Assembly (NCBI RefSeq): GCF_964204865.1 | Contig: NC_135258.1 | Span: 23,339,083-23,403,082, forward strand | Direction: 5' to 3' | DNA: 64,000 bases | DNA from: Styela clava | Taxonomy: Eukaryota > Chordata > Ascidiacea > Stolidobranchia > Styelidae | Part shown: in pieces, positions 33,993-64,000 of the stretch | How the letters are laid out: each line of letters starts with the position of its first letter | Numbering within the stretch: position 1 is the first letter of the stretch | Notes under the pieces: generated by a model | Databases searched by the model: none | What the model was told of the DNA's origin: nothing | What the model saw: the letters and a program-made list of their open reading frames with translations, nothing else | Program-made: the position numbers and the translations under genes

Positions 33993-34105
33993 GTGACATT
34001 TAATGATACTGCACCTACACCTACAAACTGGAGTCTGAATCAAGCAGTTCTTCTTCAACCTTTCGAGGATTCAGCAATACATCAAAGCAAGAATGCCAAC
34101 TAACA

Positions 34106-35261
34106 ATGTCAGAATATTTTCAAGGTCAGAATTTCAAACAACTCAAGAGTAAGTTTCCGGTACTCAAAAGTAAATTTGGAAAGAATTTTAACACGATTTG
34201 AGCACTCTCTGGAAAGAAGAGATTTTGAAAAGGTCAAAATACTGTTTCATGATGCTAACGATAAAATAGCATTTTTGGTCTGTCTAATTGATACTATGGA
34301 ATTGGCTCTAATTGAAGAAGACAGTACTACACAAAGTGAGGAAAAACCCGTTATATCCAAATTTAGTGAAGAAATTTTACGTGTGGAAAACAAGATTGCA
34401 ATCGATTTTGAGAAATATGAAGACAAACTAGATATAAAGCCGGAGATATCATCTCTTGTAACCACTCAAAACAATTATAATAATGATCCTCCTATGATTA
34501 AGTTATGTGGTATGCATCCGCCATGCTGGAACGGACAAAAAGTAGACTTTTATACCTGGAAAGAACGTTTTACACATATAATGCACCATGCAAGAATTAC
34601 GGATGATTTAGTGCAAATTTCATGACTGTTACGCAATGGTGCAATGCCAAACGATTATCAAACAATGATATGTGACTGTAAATCAATTTCAAGTGTATGG
34701 GAACGCCTGGAAGAGCGTATTCCTAAATCAGTAGTTCAACGTGAAGTAATCAAGCAATACGAGCAAATAAAACCTTTATATAAGACCTCTCGTAATCCAG
34801 CGAACCTTAGGCGACTAACTCACGAAATTTCTCTCTTCTGCCGACGTATGGAAGATCTTGGGTTAAAACAGGATGCAAACTCGGTTATTTCTGTCAATAG
34901 AGCATTAGAGTGTCTAGATGCAGACACTGCACTGCGATATAATAGTTCCAGCAAAGGTAATCATAACTTGGAATCTATAACGAATTTTCTGAGATCTGAA
35001 GCTACAGCGTTGGAAATATCTGGTAACTTTATCAATCAAACCGAGAATATGAGGTTTCGACCGAGACAAAACCAGTCGCCAAGATCTAATTTCAATACGG
35101 TTAATCATACTACAGACGAGAATGATAACATGGGTTCAGTTCAGCCACGTCAAAGGACAGTCACTTGTATTTTTGAATGTGGAATTCAGCACCGCCTTAT
35201 AGACTGCAACAAATATCAAAACCTATCAATTCCTGAAAGAAAAAAACTTTATAGCAGATGA
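34106..35261 (+). pseudogene. BEL/Pao gag-like region, broken
   Basis: The only nearby ATG (34,106) is in a different frame from the body, which runs from about 34,176. A TGA at 34,623-34,625 interrupts it and the frame resumes at once. The region contains the WNGQKVDFYTWKERF signature of the gag domain of BEL elements (DUF1759-like) and SISSVWERLEERIP. It ends at a frame change around a run of seven A residues (35,240-35,246), just before the zinc knuckles. Confidence 0.8.
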
Positions 35262-36138
35262 TCGAAGATGTTTTATATGTCTAGGAACTCACTTTGCAAG
35301 AAATTGTGCAAGAACAACAGCCGATAGCTGTGTAAATTGTAACCAAAGACCGCATCATTGGTCATTATGTCCCGGAAAAGTACAGGGAAATTACAATACA
35401 ATGAGAAATTCTGGTATAAACGATTCGAATTTGGAAAGTCAACATATTCACTCTAATGCAGCAGTATTCAACCAATCTCAGATGCATTCAACACAATTGA
35501 GCGCTTTTAATTTGGATTATTCTCCATTACTTGTTGCAGAAGTGCAGGCGAGTGACAAAACATGGATCAAGGCAAATTTCTTTCTTGATGGTGGCAGTAA
35601 CCATTCTTTGGTAAGACGTAATTTTGTAAAATCATTGAAACAAAAGGCAATAGGTCATGGAACAATTCGGTTTGGTGTCGCAGGAGGAGCCATTCATGAA
35701 GAACCTTCTGAAGATTATAATTTAAAAATTAGACCTCTTTCACGAGACCAGATATTTGATATCAGAGTTACGGCTGTGAGAAAACCTTGTCACGATGTTA
35801 CACCAATTCCGCCATCTATTTTTAAACAGTTTGATTATCTAAGAAGAATTCAGGATAAAATACCAGTTGGGCAAAAAACAGTCGATGTACTTGTTGGTAG
35901 AGATTATGCACCTTTAATTCAAACAACGCATTCGTTACGTTCGCCAATTGATCCCGATAATCATCCTTCAGCAGCTTTCACATCTCTTGGATGCTATCTA
36001 TATGGAGGCATTATTCAAGCACCGCAACGATCTTTCAATCATGTGGCAAATATTAATAGTTTTTCATCATTAGAAAATGAAGAGTTGCGCAAGTTTTTCC
36101 ATGGTGAAGTTCTTGGAGTGCAACCCACAACTTTGTGA
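35262..36138 (+). pseudogene. BEL/Pao zinc knuckles and protease region, broken
   Basis: The second frame opens with two Cys/His knuckles (CFICLGTHFARNC and CVNCNQRPHHWSLC) at about 35,278-35,370. An aspartic protease domain of the A17/DUF1758 type follows, with FLDGGSNHSLV as the active-site-like motif. A TGA at 36,136-36,138 interrupts the frame, which continues beyond it into the reverse transcriptase. Confidence 0.82.
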
Positions 36139-37653
36139 GTTTGTTCCAACTCAGAAATTGCAGAATCAGCATTTATCAAACATGTAAAAGCGACAACCAA
36201 TATTAGTGATGATGGCCGAGTTTGTGTCAAAATGCCATGGAAACCTGGTTTCCCAGAAAAATTGCACAACAATTTTGAGAAGGCGTATGAACAAATGAAA
36301 AAACGGGAACAAGAATTGTGCAGAAAAGGAAAAACGGAAGAGTATAATATGGAGATTAAAAATCTGCTTGAGCGAGGCGTAGTACGACGACTAACACCGG
36401 TTGAAACGAAAACGGCTAAAGTTGAAAATGCGTGGTACCTCAATCATCGTATCGTAGAACGTCCGGATAAAACCTCAACAAAATTAAGAATAGTATTCGA
36501 TTCTGCGTGTCCTTTTAAGGGCATATGTCTCAATGATGGTTTAGAGAAAGGCCCCAGCTTTGCGGATTCTTTGTTCAGATGTTTCATGACATGGCGAGCT
36601 GATAGTGTGGCTATTGCTGGTGATATATCAAAAATGTTTAATCAAATTCAAATGGCAGAAGTCAATCAGAAATTTCATCGTTTCCTTTGGCGCTATGGTG
36701 ATTCATCGTTGCAACCAACAATCTTTCAATGGCTTCGGGTTATGTTCGGAGATAAATCTAGTCCTGACTTGGCATGTTTTACAATTAAATTTTTAGCCGA
36801 TATATTTCGAAAAGATCATCCTCTTGGAGCTGTTGTATTGGACAAAGATACATACATTGATGATGTCAGTCATTCTGTTTCGAATCACATTCTTGCAAAC
36901 AAGGTTATCAATGATGTTGATCAAATACTTATTCGTGGAAAATTCTCTATAAAGATTTGGAACTCAAACCATCCTGAAGTAGATCAAAATCCTGGTGAAA
37001 AAGTTGTTGATGTACTTGGTCATTCCTGGAATAAAACTGATGACAGTTTCAGTTCAAAATTCAAAGACATTTCTTTCATGCAAACAGGATTTTCTAAAAG
37101 AAAAGCATTAGCATGTGTAATGAAATTGTGGGACCCTCTGGGTTATTTACTCCCAGTCACAATGGAGTATAGAATAGATCTTCAAAAGATCGGGGCAGAT
37201 GGATTTAGCTGGGACCAAACTTTGCCAGATGATGTGGTCAAATGCTGGTATAACAATGTTCAAGAAATGTCCAAGTTAGCTCAAGTTTCAACTCCAAGAT
37301 GTCTGAAACCTGAAAACACAACTGGACCTCCTCGACTGCACGCATTTTCAGACGGTGGAGATTTAGCCTATGGCACTTGTGTGTTCTTACGGTGGCCTAC
37401 AACAGGTGGAGTTAAGCTAACATTCGTTGCAGCAAAAGGATTTGTGGCGCCACTCAAACACAAAAGTACTCCAAGAAAGGAGCTAATGGGAGCAATAGGC
37501 ATGAGCAGATTGGTGCATGGAATAAGTAGAGCACTACCGTACAATATTGCATTCAAATATTTCTGGATAGACAGCAAAGTTGTTATTTATTGGTTGAACT
37601 CCCAATCTGGAAAATTCAAACCATTCGTTGCTTCAAGAGTACAAGAATTTTAA
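36139..37653 (+). pseudogene. BEL/Pao reverse transcriptase and RNase H region, interrupted
   Basis: Long open stretch in the same frame as the protease. The first catalytic aspartate of the RT is in AGDISKMF (codon 36,622), and the polymerase box is YIDD (36,853-36,864). RNase H follows (HAFSDGGDLAYG, STPRKELMG, YFWIDSKVVIYWL). The domains themselves look intact; a TAA at 37,651-37,653 then cuts the polyprotein. Confidence 0.88.
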
Positions 37654-39337
37654 GATACACATAAGAATCTAACAAAAGAAGTCAAATTCATTCCAAGTCT
37701 TCTTAATGCTGCAGATTGTTTAACAAAACCTATTTCCTGCGAGAAGCTTACAATTTGGCATGAAGGACCTGAATTTCTAAGACAACCAATGGAATATTGG
37801 CCGAATGATGATGACTTAAAATTAGATGAATTACGTCAAGAAATATTGGAAGAAAAACCACCAACTAAGTCAAAAGCATATCGCGGAAAAAGACAATTCA
37901 ACGTCGTTAAAGCAGATTTGCCTTATCAAAATGATAATGATTTAGCGGCTCATTTTTCTTCATGGCAAGACTTGCTAAGAGCGACAGCTTGGATGAAGGG
38001 TGCATTTCAGCAAAAATCATTTGTCAATTTGGAATTTAAACCTGTCGATGTCGTACAATACATAGAGAAAGCAAAATTGTGTATATTCAGAATTTGTCAA
38101 AAATCTATGATTGATGAATTTGGGAAAGCTGTCAAAACTCTATGGAAATTAGACTTGTTATTCGATTCTCACGGAATTCTTCGTATTGGTGGAAGACTGA
38201 ATAGAACTGATTTATATATGGAAATGAAGCATCCAGTCGTGCTTCCGGGCAAACATTCCCTCGTTCGTCTTCTTGGAGTGTTCTATCATAAAAAGTTTTT
38301 ACATCAAGGGTATCGAGTTATATGGGCAAATATGAAGAATGACGGTATTGTTCTTATTGGTGAAAGAATACTCTTAAAATCAATAGCATCAATGTGTATA
38401 TTTTGCAGAATTCGTCGTAGAAAGTTGCTACAGCAACGCATGGGAGAACTTCCTTCATTTCGAATGCAACCACAGATGGCACCATTCAATTCTGTAGCAA
38501 TGGATTTTTTCGGATACTTGAAAGTAAAGCAATCTCGAAATGTAGTTATCAACGCGTCTGTTTTAATTATTACATGTGCAACCACTCGTTGTATTCATCT
38601 GGAACTGTGTCTGGCTCTGGATACTAATTCGTTTCTTCGGGCATGGAGACGATTTGTATCTATATATAAGGGGAATTCATCCTGCATTTGTATTTTCCGA
38701 CGGAGGTACTACATTTCAAGCTAGTCAAGCGCCTATCAAGGAATGGATCGAGAAATGGAATTTTCAGTTGATTCAACATGAGATGGCAGAGAATCAAACG
38801 AAATTTGATTGGAAATATAATGTGCCTTACGCGTCACATATGAATGGAGTAGTAGAATCGCTTATCAACTCGGTTCGCAAAGCACTCGATGCATCAGTGG
38901 TGAATTACAGCAGGGCTCTTATGACCTACGAAGAATGGACAACTGTTCTCAACGAAATTACTTATATCATCAATAGTCGACCACTTTTCCCAGATGGAAA
39001 CCCTTTGGAATATAATTGTATTACTGGCAATACTCTTTTACATCCATATGCAAAGCAGGTAGTCCCTCAAACTACACAAGAAGAGAGATTCAATCCACGA
39101 GACATGCTAAAAGTGGCAGAAAACAGAGTTGAAGTGTTCTGGAAAACATGGATGAAACACATACCGCCTCAGCTATTACTTGCTAACAAATGGTTTCGAA
39201 CAAGACGCAATCTTCAAGTTGGAGATTACGTATTAATTCTTCAACCTGGATTTAAAGGCGGAAGTGCACCAAGAGGTTTATGGAAAAAAGCACTGGTCCA
39301 CAACATTATGCCCAGTTCAGATGGTTTGAACATTTGA
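37654..39337 (+). pseudogene. BEL/Pao integrase region with DUF5641, frameshifted
   Basis: After the TAA the frame continues with a zinc-binding region (ending in CIFCRIRRRK), then the integrase core: first aspartate in MDFFGYL (codon 38,503), second in FVFSDGGTTFQAS, glutamate in HMNGVVESLINSV. A frame change near 38,675 separates the first aspartate from the other two residues. The C-terminal DUF5641-like domain (WFRTRRNLQVGDYVLIL) stops abruptly: its reading frame runs into the 3' LTR, where the stop codon lies. Confidence 0.85.
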
Positions 39338-56605: not shown

Positions 56606-56726
56606 CCTGGCACGACATTTGACGTTTTTCTTCATCATTTAGATCTGTACAGTGTATGTACGCTTGGTAGCAAGATATATACCGGTATCAGCAGGCTATA
56701 CCGGTATCCCGCACAACTTCAAACTA

Positions 56727-59429
56727 ATGGAAGATGCCACCTTAAAGACGAGTGCTGTTGGGGACAGAGGTGGGGCAGCGAGTGTGGTTATTGAGACTAT
56801 ATATCCAATTAGGGAGGATGAAGTGTCCCCAGTTTATTCAGCGGACAAGCCTTTGACGATTATGATCGAGCAGAATTCCGAGGGAGAAGAGTCATACGAA
56901 GAACCTCCATCTGAGGGCTTTGTATCACGACATGTATCTTGTTCTAGAAAACGAAAATTGGAAGCAAAGTTTTTAGATAAAAAATCAGTTATTTCTCTCT
57001 TATTGGAATCGGAGTCAAATATATCAATAATACCATGTGAACCAGAGTCAAATCAATATTATCTTCTGAAAGATAACAGAAATTATGTCTATGGTCGTCG
57101 AAGAACAAGTCGAAACACTTTCAATGTTGATAATCATAAATGGGATTATACATCACTAAAAAAACATTACTATGTTTTTTCGAATGGTGAATTCAAATAT
57201 GTTGATTTCATTGGTGGTCAATATTTGATTCATGTTCCAAAAATGTCACAAGATAAGACAGAACGACAACCTATGTCTTGTCAACCAGAGCCTGAAAAGA
57301 TTTTAATCATGAGAAAGTGGTATGGTTCAATTAGAGGCATTCTTAAAAGGCGAATTTCATACATTGAGAAATTTCCAGCTGGTATAAAGCCAAAACAACA
57401 GAATCTCATTTTGGTAGAATACTGTGAAGATGTCGACCATCATTTACAAAGAGCAAAAATGATGAAAATTGAAGGATGCAATGCTTACAGCAGTATATTT
57501 CAACCTGAAGAAGAAAATATAAATATGGTCGAACCGAGTCTTAAAGATTCTTCATTTTTTCATTTAACATCTATAAATCTAAAAGAAGTCGGAAATTGTC
57601 AAATCAATATGGGTGGTAATAACAATGGTCTATTTTTTGATAAGGATCGAGCAATTGAAATTTTGCTGAATGCTGAAACAAGTCTAGATGAGATTCCCCA
57701 AGGTTTAAAAGAGAATGAATATTTCATTATTAATAATGAAGATAATTATCGAAGGGCCTTAGAAGGAAAAAGAAGAACATATATAGATGACTGTGGTGTT
57801 TGGAAAAATGTATCAATGAAGAAGCATTTATATACACTCATAGATGACAAATATGTTTATGTTGACTATACTGGTGGTAAATACAAAATTTCCAATTTGA
57901 CTTTAAGAGCACAAACTGAGAAAAATCTTGAAAAATCGCAGATCTTTGTAATGAGAAAAGTGTATGGATCGTTAAAAAGAGATGAAAACTACAAGCGTAG
58001 AATATGTTGGATTGATGAATTTCCCGAAGGTGTATTCCCGAAGCAGAAAAACATTGCACTTGTAGAATATATTGGAAAGTATCCAAACGAAGATGTTCCA
58101 CATGGAAATCAAAAACTGCCTGGTGGCTTGCCATATGTTAGAACATCAGCTAAGCTCATGAAGGAACTGAAAGAAAAAGTTGTGCACAAGACTGCAAAAG
58201 AAATAATCAAAGAAATCGGATTGGATAGCAACCCAAAGAATATAAAACAATTGCAAAATTTACGCTATCGAAGTAATTTGAAAATTTCAGCAGGATCTGC
58301 TAATGATCAAGTTCATAATGATGAGCTTCAGCAGGTTTTGGCAATGGTTCATGGCCATTCATATGTTCAGCAATGTATATGCACAAAATACAAACCGCCA
58401 GTAGTTATTGCATACACTTCTCAACAAATGAATTCTTTCAAATACAGATGTCAAGAAAAATCTGGGTTGAATCGTGTTCTTGGTATTGACAGGACCCTAA
58501 ATGTTGGGCCAATCAGTTTAACAATATTAACTTATCCTCAACCTAACTTATTATGTCGTAAAACATCACAACCAGCAGTGATGATGGGGCCAGTGTTTTT
58601 ACATATCGATAAATCTTGTCAAACATATACATTATTATTTAATCATATAAAAGGATGTTTACTAGAAGCAGAGAAGGCTGATATCGATGGGATCAGTGTG
58701 GCCTGCAAACCAGAAGAGGAAAAAGCAATCATCAATGCATTGAATTTTTCGTTTCCTGCCGCAACTGTAACTCACTGCGTTGATCACATGAAAATGGATC
58801 TGAGAGACCATCTGTCATCAGAGATTTGTCTACCTGATGATGTTGCTGATAACATTATAAAGCAGATGTTTTCAACCCTGAGGGATTGTGTTGAGGATTA
58901 TGATTTTGATATGAAGTCGCTGCATTTACAGTCGGAGTATGATGCAACAATTCCTCAATTTGGTCCTTATTTTCGTAAAGTTGTTGAAAACATACGCCAG
59001 AGTCTGTGGCGACCAATATTAGAAGAAAGGCCTTTGCACAAATGGTCATTAGAAACTTGTAAAGCACTGGGACAACTGGTGCAGTCATGTGGAACATGGA
59101 CATCTCTGACATTACCAGACTTACTTTTAAACCTGTATTCGATAGTTCAATCACAAGAACAGGAAGAAATACAAGCACTTCACAACGAAGGCAGTTTTGC
59201 CCTTGCATCTTATGCAAAAAAATACCAAATTTCAAAAACTGAATGGCAATTAAAAACAAATAAGCAAAGAGCACGACTTGCTGAAAACTTGCGAAAAATA
59301 AGACCTGGTGTGCAAAAGAATGCTACAAAACCGCAAAGTGATTTGCCATATCAAACTCGCCCGTTACTAGAAGACCCGAAGACTATTATATTTTACAAAA
59401 CTGGGAAAGATGGTCAGCTATACTACTGA
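56727..59429 (+). CDS. MULE/Phantom-like transposase-derived protein, 900 residues
   Basis: One uninterrupted frame ending in TGA at 59,427. The first in-frame ATG is 56,727; the frame is open for 25 codons further up but without ATG, so an upstream exon is possible. Residues 1-80 are acidic and Ser-rich with a basic SRKRKLEAK. Residues 85-233 and 305-448 are two copies of one module, each ending in a KRRIxxIxxFPxGxxPKQxN and LVEY block. Residues 470-860 resemble the Mutator/Phantom transposase core: GIDRTLN (candidate first Asp, D588), GPVFLHIDKSCQTYTLLF, KPEEEKAI where families usually show S/T-D-G/E-E, FPAATVTHCVDHM (C684, H687), a candidate Glu in LETCKAL (E776), then LPDLLLNLYSIVQSQEQEEI. 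The second acidic residue appears to be Glu in place of Asp. No terminal repeats flank the gene, and a foldback element sits just upstream. Either a single-copy domesticated transposase or the body of an element whose ends I cannot see. Confidence 0.8.
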   Translation: MEDATLKTSAVGDRGGAASVVIETIYPIREDEVSPVYSADKPLTIMIEQNSEGEESYEEPPSEGFVSRHVSCSRKRKLEAKFLDKKSVISLLLESESNISIIPCEPESNQYYLLKDNRNYVYGRRRTSRNTFNVDNHKWDYTSLKKHYYVFSNGEFKYVDFIGGQYLIHVPKMSQDKTERQPMSCQPEPEKILIMRKWYGSIRGILKRRISYIEKFPAGIKPKQQNLILVEYCEDVDHHLQRAKMMKIEGCNAYSSIFQPEEENINMVEPSLKDSSFFHLTSINLKEVGNCQINMGGNNNGLFFDKDRAIEILLNAETSLDEIPQGLKENEYFIINNEDNYRRALEGKRRTYIDDCGVWKNVSMKKHLYTLIDDKYVYVDYTGGKYKISNLTLRAQTEKNLEKSQIFVMRKVYGSLKRDENYKRRICWIDEFPEGVFPKQKNIALVEYIGKYPNEDVPHGNQKLPGGLPYVRTSAKLMKELKEKVVHKTAKEIIKEIGLDSNPKNIKQLQNLRYRSNLKISAGSANDQVHNDELQQVLAMVHGHSYVQQCICTKYKPPVVIAYTSQQMNSFKYRCQEKSGLNRVLGIDRTLNVGPISLTILTYPQPNLLCRKTSQPAVMMGPVFLHIDKSCQTYTLLFNHIKGCLLEAEKADIDGISVACKPEEEKAIINALNFSFPAATVTHCVDHMKMDLRDHLSSEICLPDDVADNIIKQMFSTLRDCVEDYDFDMKSLHLQSEYDATIPQFGPYFRKVVENIRQSLWRPILEERPLHKWSLETCKALGQLVQSCGTWTSLTLPDLLLNLYSIVQSQEQEEIQALHNEGSFALASYAKKYQISKTEWQLKTNKQRARLAENLRKIRPGVQKNATKPQSDLPYQTRPLLEDPKTIIFYKTGKDGQLYY

Positions 59430-60437: not shown

Positions 60438-63400
60438 TCAGAATTGATTGAAAGACATTTTAGAGAAATCTGTACTAAATGAGTTTGGAATGTCATTTGA
60501 ATTTTTATCCACAGCAGGGGATGTGCCCCATGGGTCATTCTTTGGTGGTACTTGCGGCTTAAGAGGTTTTGAAGTAAATGGCAGAACATATTGTTGGCCT
60601 GCCAGATGGAATGGATCATTTTGCACAGAAGGAACGGATTTTGCTTTATTAGAAATCGACTTAGGTGCTGGTGTTGGTCGCAATGGCACCAGTATATGAT
60701 TATCAAGTGGTGTTGCAACCGTGAATGGTCCAGTTGAAAGATTACTCTGTGGTTTTTCTGCAACCATCGACATATTGTTTGGTCTCTGGGAAACATGGGG
60801 CTGACCCACTCTTGGTGGTGGAAAATTAGTTTCTTGCTTAGTGTACCAAACATTTGCTGATTTTGACACTGTTGGGAGTGGCATCATTGTTGCAGGGGTT
60901 TTCCGAGGTGCTATTGTAGGTGGATTTGAATCCTTAGTTCCAGAAATTACACTAGGAATCAGTACCCCTGCTGATACAGGCCTTGGAGGCACATGTGCCG
61001 ATGTGGGAGCATAAGGGTCCAGGTCCAATAGTGACGGCTCAGAGTGATTTTCGGGGATGAAAGCAGCATTCATATGTTGACTCCTAACCTTAGGCGGTCC
61101 CTTGGGTGGTGTCAATGGTAATGGAGGAGGCATACCAGCTGTGTTTGGAGGAGGAGCGGGTGCTTTCCGTTTAGGAACATGACGACTTCGAGCAGTGGCT
61201 CTAGGAGGTCTAGATGGTAATGGTGCAGGTTCAGGAATAAGAATAGTTGATGGCTCAAGCGGGGTGAATGAAGCAGTTGACTGGGGGCCAATCGATAGAC
61301 CTGGTTTTGCTGTAGGAGGTCCTGGCATTATTGATGGAGATTGCGATGGAAGGGGTGGAGGTCCTGATGGCATAGTTGGTAGGGTGTTTGGTCTTGGTGG
61401 AGCACGCTTCTTTACTGGTCCACTAGAAGGTCGGGGTGGTGCTGATACTTTCTTGGTTAACTCTGGATTTGGTGGCATGTAGCTGTAAGAATAATGTTCG
61501 CTTTCAAAAGCCCACCCAGGGTCATTTACATCTTCCATGACCTCCTTGTTTGATTCATTAATTGTATCAGTGGCTTCCGAAACAGGAATATCATATAATT
61601 GCGTACTTGTTTGATGATATGTATTATATTCATACCTTGGTGATTCAGAACTGTCTTCTTCATGTTCCGCATCATTATGGTACACATCATAATTATATTG
61701 ACACGGTTCCCCCTCGTTTGCATATTTTTCAGCATATGATTCATTAGCAGAAAATGAATGTGAATGTTGTCGAAGTTCATGTTCAACATCTTCCTCCCAA
61801 CCTCTACTTTTTAATGTGACATAAATCAATGTTCCATCAACAGAAGTTTCATTCAAGTCTGTGGCTCTAACTGCTGCTGTACCATCACTGAAAATAACCA
61901 TCAGTTTCCCCTTGAAGTGTCGGGTGATGATAACTTCACCAATTTCGTTCAGCCTTGACATGATTGCTTCAAATAGTTCACCAGACAGTGGAATGTCACC
62001 AGTATTTTCTTCTTGGGTTAATGATATCAAGATAGTTGCATCTGGAGGACCTTGGGCTTCTACAAATTTATGAAATGTTGTATTGAGATGTTCTTCATCA
62101 GACTGTATAATATCGACATCAAGTATCGCTATAACGGGACGATGATCAGAAGTTTTAATATCAGCTTTATTATAATACAGCAATTTTCCAGGATTCCATT
62201 CTGGATCTTGACTTACTGAAACTAACGATGAGCCAGAATCTTGAGTGTCCGCAAACCATTTTCTTCGAAACCACAACACACGATCAGTCCAAGCTGGTGT
62301 CCTGGATTTTTCACTAGTATCATAGTCATCGGAAAACAAATCATACTTATAGGTTGGTGCAAAGTTAGTATCTCCTTCTAAAAAACACTGGAACACTCTT
62401 CCCTCTTTCTTTTCTGTACAGAGTTGGTCATTGCTTTGCAAAGATTTCCAATCCTTTTCAACAACTAATTGTTTAACCTCATCAATTGGCATATCTATCC
62501 GATAGTTCAGATCTCCACACCAGAAAATATAATCATGACAATAGATAGATTTATTTCCAGAGAAAACCATCTTCTTGGATATTTCAGCAAAATCATTATT
62601 TCGATCCTGTACTTGTCCTTGTCCAGCAGCTAGATGAGAGCATACAAAACACAAAGATGAGTTATGAAACTGCATTCGTATACCAATTCCTCCTTTGTTT
62701 CCAGTTGCACCCCCCAATCCAGTTTTTACAGTTCCAATTTCAACATCTCTAATATGAGGTGTATGATGCGGACGAACAAACACATAAAAGCACACACCAA
62801 CAAGCTGTTCTGAAGCAAGAAGGACATACTTGTACTTGTTAGATATTGTCTTCTGCAATTCTATTCCCCAGGTATGTTGATTAGTATGGCTTGTATTTAC
62901 AATGTTCCCAGCACTGAGTTCAACCATCTCTTGAAATCCAATAACATAAAAGTCCATTGCTTTATTCCAGTCAACCTCAGCATCATTATTGTCTGCAAGA
63001 TTGCTAAAGGAGTCACTTGACAAACTATCTTTGAATATTTCAACATAGCTAGCTGGGAAAGTTCCTTCCAATTCATCAGGATTGTATTCATCTCTTGAAA
63101 CCCTTCCCTTCCACCATTCACCTGTCATTTCAGTCACCTCAATTGTGTCGCCAGCAACAAAATCGAGATCGCCTTCCTGATGAGCTGGAAAGTCGTACAA
63201 AGCAGTATATCTTGGTAGCAATTTGGTGACATAAGCTGCAGGAAATATTCCATTACATCCATTGCAGGAACCTGACATCCATTCCCCATCCTCCAAGGCA
63301 TGATGCACATCAATGATATCACCTGATGCGAATGACAAATCACCTTCTTCGGCAGAGGAAAAATCATACAAGGCCTTGTAAAAATTATTGGTTGGTGACT

Positions 63401-64000
63401 GTTCGCATTTGATGAGCCAGTCATCTAATGTTTGATCTTTATATGCCAGTGATCGGAAATGCTTTCCACCATTTACGTTCCAGGTTCCGATGGCAACTCT
63501 AATTGGCAAGATAGATGTGTAATCTTTGAATTTATCACACATGCCTCTCAAAACCGCTGTGGGAGCACGCAAGCAATCACCAGACATTAAATTGTTTGCC
63601 CTTGCCATCAGTTCAATATCTGCTGAGTTGGTACCAAGTATGAGTAAATCAATTGCACCTTGTTTACTCTGGTCAAGAAAATTGTTTTGTATTGCACGTG
63701 TCACCGATCTTGCACCATCTTTAAATTTTGTTTTACCTTCTAAGGCTCCAGTACCAGCATACATTCGACTGATTAGATCACCAGTAATGGGCCAAGCCGT
63801 TTTGAAAGCCTCTCTGAATCTATCTTCAAGTTGCTTATTATTTCCAAGTCCCAAACTTTCCAGTTGCTTTGGTAACATCTGCATTCCAAAATACGTTTTT
63901 GTACTATTTGTACGATCCAAGCAATCAAGGCAATTAATCCTAATGACACCAGTTTGAGTGATGCGTAACTTTTCATCATCTTTATAGGTATAACATCCAT
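60438..64000 (-). CDS. SYNJ: Synaptojanin, 3' part, with two SH3 domains inside the 5-phosphatase
   Basis: Synaptojanins remove phosphates from phosphoinositides during vesicle uncoating. One open frame runs from the window edge to TGA at 60,438-60,440; the 5' end lies outside. From the N-terminal side: end of the Sac1 domain with the CX5R motif in RINCLDCLDRTNS (catalytic Cys codon 63,930-63,932); start of the inositol 5-phosphatase (VAIGTWNVNGGKHFRSLAYK); then, instead of the usual short loop, SH3 domain 1 (about 63,380-63,213; ALYDFSSAEEGDLSF to GIFPAAYV) and SH3 domain 2 (about 63,212-63,033; ALYDFPAHQEGDLDF, GEWWKG, GTFPASYV); then the rest of the phosphatase with FWCGDLNYRID, TPAWTDRVLW and SDHRPV intact. 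An RRM-like domain follows (about 62,045-61,800), then an acidic Tyr-rich linker and a proline-rich tail with a clathrin-box-like SLLDLDP, DPF and DPW motifs for AP-2, and many PxxP sites. No intron in 3.56 kb. Family assignment is very sure; the SH3 insertion is read directly. Confidence 0.96.
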   Translation of the reverse strand, partial: GCYTYKDDEKLRITQTGVIRINCLDCLDRTNSTKTYFGMQMLPKQLESLGLGNNKQLEDRFREAFKTAWPITGDLISRMYAGTGALEGKTKFKDGARSVTRAIQNNFLDQSKQGAIDLLILGTNSADIELMARANNLMSGDCLRAPTAVLRGMCDKFKDYTSILPIRVAIGTWNVNGGKHFRSLAYKDQTLDDWLIKCEQSPTNNFYKALYDFSSAEEGDLSFASGDIIDVHHALEDGEWMSGSCNGCNGIFPAAYVTKLLPRYTALYDFPAHQEGDLDFVAGDTIEVTEMTGEWWKGRVSRDEYNPDELEGTFPASYVEIFKDSLSSDSFSNLADNNDAEVDWNKAMDFYVIGFQEMVELSAGNIVNTSHTNQHTWGIELQKTISNKYKYVLLASEQLVGVCFYVFVRPHHTPHIRDVEIGTVKTGLGGATGNKGGIGIRMQFHNSSLCFVCSHLAAGQGQVQDRNNDFAEISKKMVFSGNKSIYCHDYIFWCGDLNYRIDMPIDEVKQLVVEKDWKSLQSNDQLCTEKKEGRVFQCFLEGDTNFAPTYKYDLFSDDYDTSEKSRTPAWTDRVLWFRRKWFADTQDSGSSLVSVSQDPEWNPGKLLYYNKADIKTSDHRPVIAILDVDIIQSDEEHLNTTFHKFVEAQGPPDATILISLTQEENTGDIPLSGELFEAIMSRLNEIGEVIITRHFKGKLMVIFSDGTAAVRATDLNETSVDGTLIYVTLKSRGWEEDVEHELRQHSHSFSANESYAEKYANEGEPCQYNYDVYHNDAEHEEDSSESPRYEYNTYHQTSTQLYDIPVSEATDTINESNKEVMEDVNDPGWAFESEHYSYSYMPPNPELTKKVSAPPRPSSGPVKKRAPPRPNTLPTMPSGPPPLPSQSPSIMPGPPTAKPGLSIGPQSTASFTPLEPSTILIPEPAPLPSRPPRATARSRHVPKRKAPAPPPNTAGMPPPLPLTPPKGPPKVRSQHMNAAFIPENHSEPSLLDLDPYAPTSAHVPPRPVSAGVLIPSVISGTKDSNPPTIAPRKTPATMMPLPTVSKSANVWYTKQETNFPPPRVGQPHVSQRPNNMSMVAEKPQSNLSTGPFTVATPLDNHILVPLRPTPAPKSISNKAKSVPSVQNDPFHLAGQQYVLPFTSKPLKPQVPPKNDPWGTSPAVDKNSNDIPNSFSTDFSKMSFNQF

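Follow-up and report, generated by a model that had tools for sequence, protein, structure and literature searches.

Two SH3 domains within a synaptojanin 5-phosphatase domain

A synaptojanin of the ascidian Styela clava carries two tandem SH3 domains inside its 5-phosphatase domain. The gene lies at one edge of the window, our term for the whole 64,000-nucleotide stretch analyzed here (contig NC_135258.1, positions 23,339,083 to 23,403,082), and the arrangement, which an original prediction had proposed from the DNA letters, is confirmed. Because the SH3 pair is common to nine synaptojanins in one tunicate clade, it is an old and retained trait of that clade, not a local oddity. This known enzyme thus has an SH3-bearing variant common to one lineage, and its consequence can be put to a direct test.

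From the WNVNGGK block of the phosphatase to its GFQEMVEL block, the reading frame runs without a stop through both SH3 domains. Pfam recognizes SH3_1 in the insert over two stretches (expectation value, E, 4.8e-23), along with SH3_9 (8e-16) and SH3_2 (3e-11), and over the whole protein SH3_1 scores 80.9 bits in two copies against a curated cut-off of 22.9. Both domains fall within positions 62967-63410, where they had been predicted. In a phmmer comparison with the PDB, the match to human Synj1 (7a0v) is broken around the insert, with query residues 165-198 aligned to chain residues 8-41 and 344-632 to 54-348. The window protein thus has 145 residues between the matched pieces and human Synj1 has 12, in good agreement with the predicted replacement of a short human loop by about 150 residues. 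The insert occupies the loop that follows helix 1 of the phosphatase. The catalytic motifs that we tested are present in spite of the insert, as had been expected of the motifs on both sides. The claim that the segment contains neither a stop nor a splice signal holds for the stop and for GTRAG donor-like sites, of which the coding strand has none between 62901 and 63480, but there is one acceptor-like site in that interval. The G+C content at third codon positions (GC3) is 0.34 in the insert, inside the range of the flanking windows (0.23-0.38).

The window frame encodes the end of the SAC domain, the 5-phosphatase, DUF1866 and a proline-rich tail, as judged by Pfam and by composition. Residues 365-1550 of a database protein of 1550 residues (P0001) are identical to it, and the start of the gene lies beyond the window edge. 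P0001 supplies the remainder of the SAC domain, including Syja_N (E 1.3e-60) and the NC.DC.DRTN motif. We therefore found in this protein a SAC domain with CX5R(T/S), the 5-phosphatase motifs, the DUF1866/RRM-like domain, the proline-rich tail and the tree placement of a synaptojanin. Vertebrate Synj1 (human; 7a0v, 7a17) shares this SAC, 5-phosphatase, DUF1866 and tail architecture and has no SH3 domain. A comparison of the whole protein with a phage collection gave no match.

Database records already carry SH3 calls on these proteins in the form of precomputed Pfam matches. We found no description of SH3 domains in synaptojanin among the titles and abstract openings of the open papers listed, with subscription journals and preprints outside the scope of this search.

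Distribution and single origin

Homology searches gave eight more synaptojanins with the same insert, including those of Clavelina lepadiformis, Ciona intestinalis (P0006) and Phallusia mammillata; one search listed the full eight, and the other two recovered parts of the set. The homology searches covered the best 120 of 1583, 1707 and 1646 matches, and SH3-bearing synaptojanins may exist beyond these. The method relies on shared 5-residue words, and single runs missed known members (P0001, P0004 and P0007; P0002 and P0004). No larvacean (Oikopleura) protein was among these best 120 matches, in a search too insensitive for such an absence to count.

We measured the loop in 269 of the 282 proteins fetched. 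It is shorter than 60 residues in 259 of them and 129-152 residues long in nine, which are exactly the tunicate set; by the same count, vertebrate Synj1 has 19 residues (three rows of the tree described below). The remaining protein, a sturgeon prediction with 83 residues, contains duplicated phosphatase sequence and not SH3. The thirteen unmeasured proteins comprise twelve matches to SH3 proteins without the phosphatase landmarks (intersectin-like, the named ones from nematodes) and one starfish synaptojanin, which has WNVNGGR in place of the landmark and a loop that is short by eye. The loop is likewise short by eye in amphioxus, two hemichordates and three bivalves. The non-tunicate proteins are mostly from vertebrates and often isoforms of one gene, so these counts do not represent independent lineages. 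Among the measured proteins, loops of 129 residues or more are found only in the nine tunicates, and the earlier remark that no such arrangement is known from human, fly or worm synaptojanin also holds for the proteins fetched.

Tunicates are the sister group of vertebrates. We built a tree of 14 rows, all of them synaptojanins and with no other 5-phosphatase as outgroup, from the SAC and 5-phosphatase domains with the insert removed. The nine insert-bearing proteins fall on one branch (bootstrap 100, Shimodaira-Hasegawa-like approximate likelihood ratio test 100), requiring one change of state, and this branch adjoins the vertebrate and hemichordate synaptojanins. Within it, the window protein and three others (100/98) are separated from Ciona, Clavelina, Phallusia, P0008 and P0009 (100/100), and the insert is older than the split of these two groups. 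From the tree alone, the window species would most likely be a tunicate other than the three named ones, perhaps a stolidobranch, no named member of which is among the rows. Most simply, the SH3 pair would have been gained once and then retained.

Conservation of the SH3 domains

Comparing the window protein with the other eight, identity is 36-67% in the first domain (SH3-1) and 34-68% in the second (SH3-2), against 54-75% in the catalytic domain, 46-72% in SAC and 26-41% in the tail. In every pair the SH3 domains are less conserved than the catalytic domain and SAC, and more conserved than the tail. At the binding-groove positions, which we assigned from general knowledge of SH3 domains, SH3-1 keeps Trp, Pro and the last Tyr in all nine tunicates, with Tyr (seven) or Phe (two) at the first site. 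Trp and Pro are also present in all nine SH3-2 sequences, although the rest of that groove is partly lost in several species, so the two domains are probably not equivalent. Both look canonical in the window protein. Ciona, Clavelina and Phallusia share its architecture, insert site and clade, and differ from it in their partly changed SH3-2 groove and in DUF1866 (see below).

SH3-1 and SH3-2 of tunicates are much alike, with 48% identity between the first sequences compared. Against the PDB, the SH3-1 profile gave Crk (62 bits), intersectin-2 (61) and nostrin (60) among its top rows, which also include endophilin; GRB2 reached 84 bits summed over two SH3 domains, the better one scoring 48. 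The SH3-2 profile gave STAC at 54 bits, others reaching about 50, with GRB2 at 63 bits summed and 39 for its better domain. Several adaptor SH3 domains thus lie within a few bits of each other, and the two may stem either from a tandem duplication or from the capture of a ready pair.

Structure model

In an AlphaFold model, searched as a whole for similar folds, the insert is placed within a synaptojanin-like fold, a check that the original prediction had proposed. The 5-phosphatase part is 58% identical to Synj1 over 323 aligned residues. The SH3 regions, which were compared only as part of the whole model, are predicted to form strands with a predicted local distance difference test score (pLDDT) of 82-93, apart from one block at 75. 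No SH3 chain is among the best 50 matches listed in either fold search, for which the whole model and not the SH3 domains alone served as query. Judging from the fold topology, the insert is expected at the opposite end of the strands from the Mg ligands, and a simple blocking of the active site by the SH3 domains is therefore less likely. They should lie near the SAC/5-phosphatase junction.

Motifs in the proline-rich tail

The proline-rich tail of synaptojanin is ordinarily bound by the SH3 domains of endophilin, amphiphysin and intersectin. The pairing of endophilin SH3 with the synaptojanin tail is the type of contact considered here, but it is made in trans, whereas tunicates have SH3 domains and tail in one chain. 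All nine tunicate tails contain an island, KRxAPx[PA]P, that in each case matches the [RK]..P..P pattern of class I SH3 ligands. The looser form [KR][KR].AP.[PA] is found in one of 244 non-tunicate tails (vole Synj2, KKSAPAA) and arises by chance in 0.35-1.5% of shuffles of each tunicate tail; the vertebrate Synj1 tails scanned have no KRxAPxPP island. We regard the island as a lead toward a self-ligand and not as proof of one.

General counts of ligand motifs vary. The window tail (440 residues) has four P..P.[RK] (class II) and two [RK]..P..P sites, and its class II count compares with 1.3 in shuffles, 11 of 300 of which reach four. Class I sites clearly outnumber those of shuffled tails for Clavelina and Phallusia (0/300 each), but not for the window protein or P0008. 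Class II sites number 6-8 in the three vertebrate tails counted, as opposed to 0-5 in the nine tunicates. As a separate observation, seven of the nine tunicate synaptojanins have a DPW motif in their tails.

Possible roles of the SH3 pair

We put it at a little under an even chance that tunicate synaptojanin binds itself through its built-in SH3 domains, under the control of competition with endophilin-type SH3 domains. This is the simplest reading, because SH3 and likely ligand share one chain. SH3-1, and in some species SH3-2, would bind the KRxAPxPP island of the protein's own tail, either in cis or on a neighboring molecule, giving a closed or self-assembled form that competes with endophilin-type partners. 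Displacement of the protein's own SH3 by a partner SH3, or by phosphorylation of the tail, would then open it. Since the SH3 domains should face away from the active site, an effect on partner access, on the arrangement of SAC and 5-phosphatase or on clustering would be likelier than plugging of the active site. From the observed domains, their site, their restriction to one clade, their constraint and motifs, and the tail island, we infer binding, regulation and competition. More doubtfully, the SH3 pair may have arisen together with the island as its dedicated ligand, giving an autoregulated or self-assembling enzyme in which opening, and not recruitment, is the controlled step. Self-binding and recruitment had both been suggested previously; sequence comparison favors self-binding, because nine tails carry the ligand-like island and the others lack it bar one loose match.

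Several observations weigh against self-binding. The island was noticed only after the tails had been inspected, and it traces to the same stem as the SH3 domains, so that their co-occurrence is one event and not nine. The island may just as well be a binding site for tunicate endophilin or for some other partner. An older island, [KR]..PPRP, is kept by seven of nine tunicates, and 233 of the 244 other tails have it too. Among tunicates it is lost or changed only in P0008 and P0009, and because it persists, partners probably still bind in trans. The class I count of the window tail (two, versus 1.3 in shuffles) is not above chance. The SH3 domains of P0008 and P0009 are 34-36% identical to those of the window protein, little above their tails at 28-29%. 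The first groove site of SH3-2 is Tyr in one tunicate, Phe in three and His in five, and the last is Tyr in three, Phe in four and His in two; at least one SH3 may therefore lack PxxP binding. Where the insert joins, the model has low pLDDT: 61-68 for residues 21-50, and 66 for 201-220. Finally, locking the enzyme through its own tail might have little effect, because in the worm synaptic transmission is reported not to need the synaptojanin tail (PMC4435004), and in the same text the importance of the SH3-tail contact is still disputed.

It may be instead that the SH3 pair reaches outward as a recruitment arm, binding other proline-rich proteins of endocytosis such as dynamin or N-WASP and bringing the phosphatase to the vesicle neck; one chain would then do part of the job done elsewhere by the endophilin SH3 domain. 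We take this possibility seriously without thinking it probable. It agrees with the canonical SH3-1 groove in all nine tunicates and with the SH3-1 profile, which best matches adaptor SH3 domains (GRB2, Crk, intersectin-2, nostrin and endophilin among the top rows). An arm near SAC could help, since a worm 5-phosphatase tethered to the BAR domain of endophilin is reported to bypass SAC (PMC4435004). Recruitment would, however, leave unexplained the ligand-like island of all nine tunicate tails, nearly absent elsewhere.

A mainly structural role, in which the pair is now a spacer or an interface between SAC and 5-phosphatase and peptide binding has been lost wholly or in SH3-2, seems unlikely to us. 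The SH3-2 groove would fit such a role, with His at the first site in five of nine and Phe or His at the last in six while Trp and FP stay, as would the position of the insert, in a loop at one end of the fold that probably adjoins the SAC junction, but SH3-1 has kept its groove in all nine proteins and both SH3 domains of Styela look canonical.

An artefact in the form of an assembly join, a mis-spliced model or contamination is extremely improbable: although the window species is represented by one genomic locus, its frame of 1186 codons is continuous with even GC3, and the eight other proteins, which come from several sources and include those of three named tunicates, share both the insert and its position, making the assembly join that might have overturned the prediction very unlikely. 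For two of these, P0008 and P0009, the source contigs (4341 and 4323 bases) barely exceed the coding sequence, which suggests that the records are transcripts.

If self-binding is correct, one chordate branch would have internalized the SH3-proline switch of endocytosis. Tunicates offer a natural experiment in which SH3 domains are built into an enzyme of textbook endocytosis, and Ciona is tractable in the laboratory, so that the question is open to direct testing; models of recruitment from vertebrates should not be applied unchanged to Ciona. Phospholipase C-gamma has an SH2-SH2-SH3 array between the two halves of its catalytic barrel, and so likewise holds signaling modules inside the catalytic domain of a phosphoinositide enzyme. 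It differs in its unrelated catalytic fold, in the presence of SH2 domains and in having no proline-rich tail of its own as ligand. Work on the ascidian notochord mentions synaptojanin as in other animals (PMC10007804).

Features of the locus and other observations

Table 1. Features of the synaptojanin gene in window coordinates.
Feature	Position	Strand	Evidence
Synaptojanin C-terminal part, open frame of 1186 codons plus stop	60438..63998	-	Open reading frame list; intron-free; runs past window edge
5-phosphatase piece 1 (IRVAIGTWNVNGGKHFRS...DDWLIKC), with first Mg-binding Asn block	63405..63503	-	PDB alignment to Synj1 7a0v/7a17, query 165/166-198
SH3-1 (ALYDF, EEGDL, EWMSG, GIFPAAYV)	~63222..63386	-	Pfam SH3_1/SH3_9/SH3_2; alignment of nine tunicates
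SH3-2 (ALYDF, QEGDL, EWWKG, GTFPASYV)	~63030..63218	-	Pfam second stretch; alignment of nine tunicates
5-phosphatase piece 2, larger (FYVIGFQEMVEL ... SDHRPV)	62103..62969	-	Pfam PF22669 E 1.3e-82; PDB query 344-632
DUF1866 domain	61743..62120	-	Pfam PF08952 E 2.4e-23
Proline-rich tail, start placed by eye	60441..61451	-	19% proline over slightly longer 440-residue tail
KRKAPAPP, SH3-ligand-like island	61149..61172	-	9/9 tunicate tails; 1 loose match in 244 others
SFSTDF, C-terminal motif	60465..60482	-	S[FY][ST]T[DN]F in 9/9 tunicates, 0/244 other tails

Vertebrate synaptojanin genes have many exons. The intron-free stretch of at least 1186 codons seen here possibly reflects intron loss or retroposition in the lineage.

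DUF1866, which we take to be the RRM-like domain of synaptojanins, is recognized in the window protein and in P0003. At E 0.001, Pfam gives no match to it in Clavelina, Ciona, Phallusia or P0008, whose corresponding region is 13-19% identical to that of the window protein. Identity in this region ranges from 13% to 50% between the window protein and the other eight. The pattern suggests fast decay or loss in one tunicate branch.

Elsewhere in the window, positions 56643-59429 (+) hold an open frame of 928 codons with no Pfam family above cut-off and a weak likeness to the MULE transposase (E 0.11, below cut-off); two of its internal stretches resemble repeats of each other by eye. A retrotransposon of the Pao/BEL type occupies positions 34104-39337 (+) in several frames, with matches to Peptidase_A17 (E 5.8e-35) and DUF5641 (E 4.5e-8), and to RVT_1 below the curated cut-off (E 1.7e-5).
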